Source: Bacillota bacterium (GTDB lineage Bacteria; Bacillota; DSM-12270; Thermacetogeniales; Thermacetogeniaceae). From it: a stretch of 64,000 nucleotides of DNA. The notes below the pieces were generated by a model. The model was not told the DNA's origin. It made no database searches and saw only the letters and a program-made list of their open reading frames with translations. Location: positions 248,001-312,000 of the forward strand of contig JABLXW010000001.1 in the NCBI GenBank assembly GCA_013177945.1, in the 5' to 3' direction. Position numbers and translations under genes: made by a program. This document shows positions 10,197-10,874 of the stretch, piece after piece (position 1 is the first letter of the stretch; every line of letters begins with the position of its first letter).

Positions 10197-10219
10197 AAAG
10201 CTACTTATGTAGCTTTTTT
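10197..10219 (+). terminator. Rho-independent terminator after the MoxR-VWA pair
   Basis: AAAGCTAC (10197-10204) and GTAGCTTT (10209-10216) form an 8-bp stem with a 4-base loop that runs into a T-tract ending at 10219. Confidence 0.75.
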
Positions 10220-10247
10220 CATTTAATTGACAGAAGCATTTATTTAT

Positions 10248-10291
10248 GTTAAGTTTAAGTTAAGGTTATGTTAAGTTTTTGTTAAGACTAC
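10248..10291 (+). promoter_or_regulatory. four 11-bp direct repeats, probable response-regulator binding array
   Basis: Four head-to-tail units start GTTAAG at 10248, 10259, 10270 and 10281, each exactly 11 bases apart, each with a 4-5 base variable AT-rich tail. The array lies between the upstream terminator and the mgtC-like gene. OmpR/PhoB-family response regulators bind 11-bp direct repeats of this design, spaced one per helical turn. The regulator itself is not in the window. No clear -35 hexamer is present, as expected if an activator replaces it. Confidence 0.6.
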
Positions 10292-10312
10292 CGGAGAGGG
10301 GAGGGAGGGAAT

Positions 10313-10804
10313 TTGCTTTCTTACCAGGAGATCATAATCAGAATGTTAATTTCCCTCCTGGTGGGGTTAATCATCGGTTACGAGCGCACAAAACAGCAAA
10401 AACCCGCCGGAATTCGAACCTACTCCCTGGTATGCATCGGAGCCACCCTTTTCATGATCATCAGCGCTTACGGACTTCAGAACCTGCCGTACATAAGCGG
10501 TTTTCGCATGGACCCGGGCCGGATCGCGGCCCAGATAATTACCGGAATCGGCTTTCTGGGAGCCGGAGTAATCTGGAAAGATCGGGGAACCATTAGAGGA
10601 TTAACAACTGCAGCCAATCTGTGGGTTACAGCAGGCCTGGGAATGGCAATCGGATTAGGGCTTTATTTTTTAACCCTGGTGGCCGTTGTCTGCATCTTTC
10701 TTGCCCTTTACAGTTCTCCCATCCTCTGCCACCTGGGACTCCTTTACTACCCTGAGGAAAAAACGGAAAAGACAAAGGAGGACGAAGAAAAAATTTTAGG
10801 TTGA
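10313..10804 (+). CDS. MgtC/SapB-family membrane protein
   Basis: A 163-residue membrane protein with the family hallmarks GLIIGYERTKQQKPAGIRTYSLVCIGATLF and TGIGFLGAGVIWK seen as separate conserved blocks, then LTTAANLWVTAGLGMAIG. Four to five hydrophobic segments are evident, with a charged Lys/Glu tail. TTG 10313 is preceded by GGGAGGGA. MgtC-type proteins act in growth at low magnesium or phosphate and modulate ATP synthase in some bacteria; the exact role here is unknown. The 11-bp repeat array just upstream suggests control by a phosphate- or magnesium-type two-component system. Confidence 0.85.
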   Translation: MLSYQEIIIRMLISLLVGLIIGYERTKQQKPAGIRTYSLVCIGATLFMIISAYGLQNLPYISGFRMDPGRIAAQIITGIGFLGAGVIWKDRGTIRGLTTAANLWVTAGLGMAIGLGLYFLTLVAVVCIFLALYSSPILCHLGLLYYPEEKTEKTKEDEEKILG

Positions 10805-10829
10805 CAATTTCATGAGAAATCATTAGGAT
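10801..10829 (+). promoter_or_regulatory. promoter with internal palindrome before the Cys-rich protein gene
   Basis: A perfect TTGACA (10801-10806) overlaps the mgtC-like stop codon and is followed after 17 bases by TAGGAT (10824-10829). The spacer begins with the palindrome ATTTC-ATGA-GAAAT (10807-10820), a plausible operator. It would drive the gene starting at 10875. Confidence 0.5.
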
Positions 10830-10874
10830 TGAAAGGGCAGAGTCCACACCTCCCGGCTTGGGAGAAGAGTTTTG

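Follow-up and report, generated by a model that had tools for sequence, protein, structure and literature searches.

In an uncultured anaerobe of the Thermacetogeniaceae (Bacillota), four direct repeats in 11-bp steps form an array over the promoter of mgtC, and we propose that this array is an operator of the phosphate-starvation response regulator PhoP/PnpR, through which phosphate starvation would shut off mgtC. We give this reading, which rests on sequence comparison, a probability of about 0.6. The window that we analyzed is 64,000 nucleotides long (GenBank assembly GCA_013177945.1, contig JABLXW010000001.1, positions 248,001 to 312,000, forward strand) and belongs to a genome of 2.71 Mb; positions given without a contig are those of the window. 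The proposal starts from the array itself, the conservation of the promoter that it overlaps, a motif in common with pstS, and an operon encoding PhoP, PnpS, PstB, and PhoU.

An array with 11-bp steps at the mgtC promoter

The exact hexamer GTTAAG occurs on the plus strand at 10248-10253, 10259-10264, 10270-10275, and 10281-10286, with spacings of 11, 11, and 11 bp. A preliminary description of the window had reported these four repeats before an mgtC-like gene, and they are indeed there, the last of them ending 5 bp before position 10291, where that description had closed the array. The unit is better given as TGTTAAG (AGTTAAG in unit 2). Read on the minus strand, the units are CTTAACA within the extended −10 element (unit 1, 10247-10253), CTTAACT (unit 2, 10258-10264), CTTAACA (unit 3, 10269-10275), and CTTAACA (unit 4, 10280-10286), and the whole is a Pho-box-like repeat of CTTAACA-N4. 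A Pho box contains at least two direct repeats of 11 bp, and the array has four in exact steps.

GTTAAG is present 26 times on the two strands of the window, and at this frequency a four-unit array with exact 11-bp spacing is expected ∼1e-8 times per whole genome. Throughout the genome, the exact pair GTTAAG-N5-GTTAAG is confined to the mgtC array, where it gives three overlapping matches, and a random genome-wide scatter of such pairs can therefore be rejected. When one mismatch is allowed, six further matches appear elsewhere in the genome, which is the level of the reversed-pattern control.

Position of the array and predicted repression

The mgtC gene (10313-10804, plus strand) encodes a protein of 163 amino acids assigned to MgtC by Pfam (PF02308, E = 1.5e-39) and starts with TTG, at a place where several relatives have ATG. 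The gene before it is VWA/CoxE-like, and a Rho-independent terminator-like hairpin with an 8-bp stem and a T run (10197-10216, plus strand) follows the 3′ end of that gene, in keeping with the earlier suggestion that the stretch from the terminator to mgtC is a dedicated control region. In the predicted mgtC promoter, a perfect −35 element, TTGACA (10227-10232, plus strand), is followed after a 17-bp spacer by a poor −10 element, TAAGTT, with a TG extension; the extended −10 element (TG-T-TAAGTT, TGTTAAGTT, 10247-10255, plus strand) contains unit 1 of the array. The pattern TTGAC(A/G)-15 bases-TG-one base-TA-N3-T, in which TTGAC- stands at a fixed spacing from TGTTA---T (TTA[A/C/G]), is found in 16 of the 18 mgtC upstream regions of the family, and a 17th (G003) has the promoter with a spacer shorter by one base. 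Transcription would start near 10262, placing units 2 to 4 between approximately this site and the purine-rich ribosome-binding region (GGAGAGGGGAGGGAGGG, 10293-10309, plus strand), and the array spans from −10 to about +25.

In the mechanism that we favor, PhoP/PnpR, a response regulator of the OmpR/PhoB family, would bind the array, with each 11-bp unit (CTTAACA-N4 on the minus strand) serving as one half-site. Unit 1 would double as the extended −10 element of mgtC while units 2 to 4 would extend over the first transcribed bases. Under phosphate limitation, phosphorylated PhoP (PhoP∼P) would occupy all units in a head-to-tail row, covering the −10 element and the start site, and mgtC would be shut off at the same time as PhoP∼P activates pstS through similar, oppositely oriented boxes. 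We infer the binding, its dependence on phosphorylation, the repression, and the physiological reason for it.

Since a perfect −35 element and an extended −10 element are combined here with boxes that cover −10 to about +25, a bound protein should block RNA polymerase. In an activated Pho promoter the boxes lie upstream of the −10 element and are oriented as at pstS, whereas the mgtC boxes are reversed relative to those of pstS and sit on the −10 element and the early transcribed region, not upstream of the −35 element. This arrangement makes repression more likely than activation. It is conceivable that PhoP∼P, at the same operator, activates mgtC in phosphate starvation, given the motif common to mgtC and pstS and a −10 element poor enough that the promoter could need help, but we consider this unlikely in view of the perfect −35 element, the 17-bp spacer, and the TG extension, and of boxes that run reversed from −10 to about +25. 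Units 2 to 4 also fill the stretch from the start site to the ribosome-binding region, so that a further promoter would not fit between the array and that region.

A possible minus-strand promoter at 10274-10246 was rejected, since the match is weak and there is no gene for it to drive, and the promoter region gave no match in a plasmid collection. At the end of mgtC, a promoter-like TTGACA-N17-TAGGAT (10801-10829) precedes a cysteine-rich gene at 10872, which has no Pfam match and may have its own promoter.

Conservation of the array in relatives

Orthologues of mgtC, 72 to 91% identical over nearly their whole length, are present in most of 19 family relatives, the named ones being Thermacetogenium and Syntrophaceticus. 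Of 18 family members, 7 have strong mgtC arrays, which fade to one unit in others; there are five units in G001, four to five in G002, about four in G012, and longer, degenerate series in the three genomes of genus g3. The arrays of G006 and G016 are weak, and no more than one unit is present in the rest of the family, giving an overall range of 1 to about 8. The available cultured relatives are among those whose arrays are weak or reduced to a single unit. Among 80 mgtC loci from many phyla, no convincing array was seen outside the family, strong scores coming only from Thermacetogenium/Syntrophaceticus-family relatives. G003 carries a second mgtC copy (G003:C85:4547-5002) that is 67% identical to the mgtC of the window, compared to 78% for its other orthologue.

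The register of the array is unchanged among the three species of the genus, and the GTTAA core columns of units 2 to 4 are invariant (15 of 15), compared to 7 of 18 for the other columns (Fisher p = 1.7e-4). Invariant, in-register cores with diverged spacers point to a protein-binding array and not to a fresh tandem duplication. An 11-bp minisatellite, bent DNA, or a leader-RNA element that arose from the −10 element would fit the variable number of units and the identity of unit 1 with the −10 element. We nevertheless regard a site of this kind as very unlikely, since fresh tandem copies would not have kept their cores while the spacers diverged, the unit recurs at pstS, and the leader RNA has no Rfam match, on which ground a riboswitch or other known leader RNA was also rejected.

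Similar boxes at phosphate genes

A three-unit pattern derived from the array was run over 20 genomes, with matches in the organism's own genome (G000) counted at two or fewer mismatches; scattered matches with three mismatches were about as frequent as those of the reversed pattern used as a control, and only strong or gene-linked matches were considered. The own genome has four such places only: mgtC, pstS on contig C11, and one site each on C7 and C5. The pstS boxes (G000:C11:115704-115775, with the pstS match from 115882) read TTTACA, TTAACA, TTATTA, and TTTACA towards the gene in 11-bp steps, upstream of a plausible −10 element. The array thus has its motif in common with the organism's own pst promoter, as a Pho box should. 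Over the 20 genomes, the best matches other than those at mgtC precede phosphate genes, with strong boxes before pstS in G003, G010, and G021, a weaker one before pstS in G025, a strong box before a phosphate:H+ symporter-like gene in G022, and a further match before a Pit-type operon in G023. As in the own genome, the pstS repeats of the relatives point at the gene. The genome search for units linked to pst-type genes, which had been proposed as a check, was therefore positive for pstS in the own and related genomes.

Phosphate or magnesium starvation had been offered as the signal. The pstS boxes and the regulator operon described below favor phosphate, and magnesium control was set aside because no supporting sequence was found.

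Similar arrays also occur at other genes. On C7, 66 bp separate a Pho-box-like array (G000:C7:50256-50294; L088:5757-5795) from a diglucosyl-diacylglycerol-synthase-like gene, the first gene of a response-regulator/kinase operon, and the array may serve a phospholipid-to-glycolipid swap in phosphate starvation. No conserved Pho-type box was seen before the homologues of this gene in relatives, so the C7 box may be specific to this genome. The C5 site (G000:C5:24561-24588; L205:3562-3589) is a strong three-unit box, reversed as at mgtC and followed after ∼120 bp by a GT4 glycosyltransferase gene. In other families, Pho-box-like arrays precede uppP-like genes adjoining OmpR-family two-component genes (L083:3944-3982 in G024 and L092:3214-3241 in G022). 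An identical sequence, TGTTAAGTTTTTGTTAAGTTTTCGTATA, was found in two genera and twice in one genome (L080:3770-3797 in G004; G006:C1:643916-643943 and 2101280-2101307) and is probably a mobile or repeated element.

Candidate regulator

The genome encodes a response regulator (C8:306566-307282) in an operon with a PnpS-type kinase, PstB, and PhoU, and thus has the cognate PhoP/PhoR-type pair expected with a Pho box. The kinase scores 479 bits against PnpS (cutoff, 400). Of 20 family genomes, 12 carry an orthologue of the regulator that is at least 72% identical, and in several of them it adjoins pstS. Together with the array and the pstS motif, this operon largely supports, by sequence inference, the OmpR/PhoB-type direct-repeat operator that the preliminary description had suggested.

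The array could instead be recognized by a different member of the OmpR family whose box is similar, WalR being the foremost candidate, or by one of the three other clear OmpR-type regulators in the genome. The WalR box is TGTWAH-N5-TGTWAH (PMC9210968); units 1, 3, and 4 fit TGTWAH in the WalR orientation, units 3 and 4 form an exact box, and unit 2 begins with A. The PhoP-like protein itself reaches no equivalog cutoff, and its best NCBIfam model, still below cutoff, is YycF. However, no regulator in the genome reaches the WalR/YycF cutoff (best score, 287 of 340), the kinase that reaches PnpS falls short of WalK (429 of 725), and a CTTAACA-type unit is also found at pstS, all of which makes such a site improbable.

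The motif was also assessed with a matrix whose training set, free of own-genome sequence, consisted only of promoters of phosphate genes from other genera or families; it was scanned over 150 kb of own-genome DNA. At four units, mgtC came first (41.6) and pstS second (21.4), with the next unrelated match at 9.6; the training sites had been found with the mgtC-array pattern, so this test is not fully independent, while the nearness of the sites to pst is. That dependence counts against our proposal, as do several other observations. In G023, a Pit-type phosphate transporter operon has a plausible promoter with a three-unit array in the TGTTAA orientation (L082:4090-4117) upstream of it, and orientation alone is thus no proof of repression. 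G012 has a strong mgtC array, yet its best PhoP match is only 48% identical, while G003, G007, and G018 have PhoP but no more than one unit at mgtC.

For the family as a whole, we suggest only tentatively, at somewhat less than even odds, that PhoP directly represses mgtC, that the −10 element is a reversed Pho half-site from which the operator grew into the transcribed region by the successive addition of units, and that MgtC is off and Pst on during starvation. The graded arrays of 1 to about 8 units offer a natural series for such growth out of a −10 element.

Comparison with known systems

The function of MgtC proteins is still debated. A direct phosphate-regulator box on mgtC in harmless anaerobes would, if true, suggest that MgtC and phosphate balance have an older connection, and the proposal gives a simple, signed prediction. 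Direct repression as suggested for the family would assign MgtC to the phosphate or phosphate/magnesium balance of free-living anaerobes, outside any virulence setting. In the literature searched, of which coverage was incomplete, we found no description of a Pho box on mgtC.

Like the Pho boxes of PhoB, PhoP, and SphR, the array consists of direct repeats with 11 bp per unit, and the cyanobacterial SphR box, CTTAACCT with a 3-bp linker (PMC1906773), is almost the mgtC unit. The array differs in its target, mgtC, and in being reversed over the −10 element and start site and not upstream of the −10 element. The WalR box shares the spacing and, on the mgtC strand, nearly the same letters, but the motif here is tied to pst, and the genome has no WalR or WalK above cutoff. 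That PhoP∼P can act as a repressor is known from Bacillus subtilis, where it represses tagAB (PMC6232261), a different target. In Salmonella, MgtC acts on PhoR, linking MgtC to phosphate, but mgtC itself is unresponsive to low phosphate (PMC6658541); the MgtC-phosphate link is common to both systems, whereas the window has a Pho-type box directly on mgtC. What is new here is an array that is reversed relative to pst, whose unit 1 is the extended −10 element of the promoter and whose other units lie between the inferred start and the ribosome-binding site.
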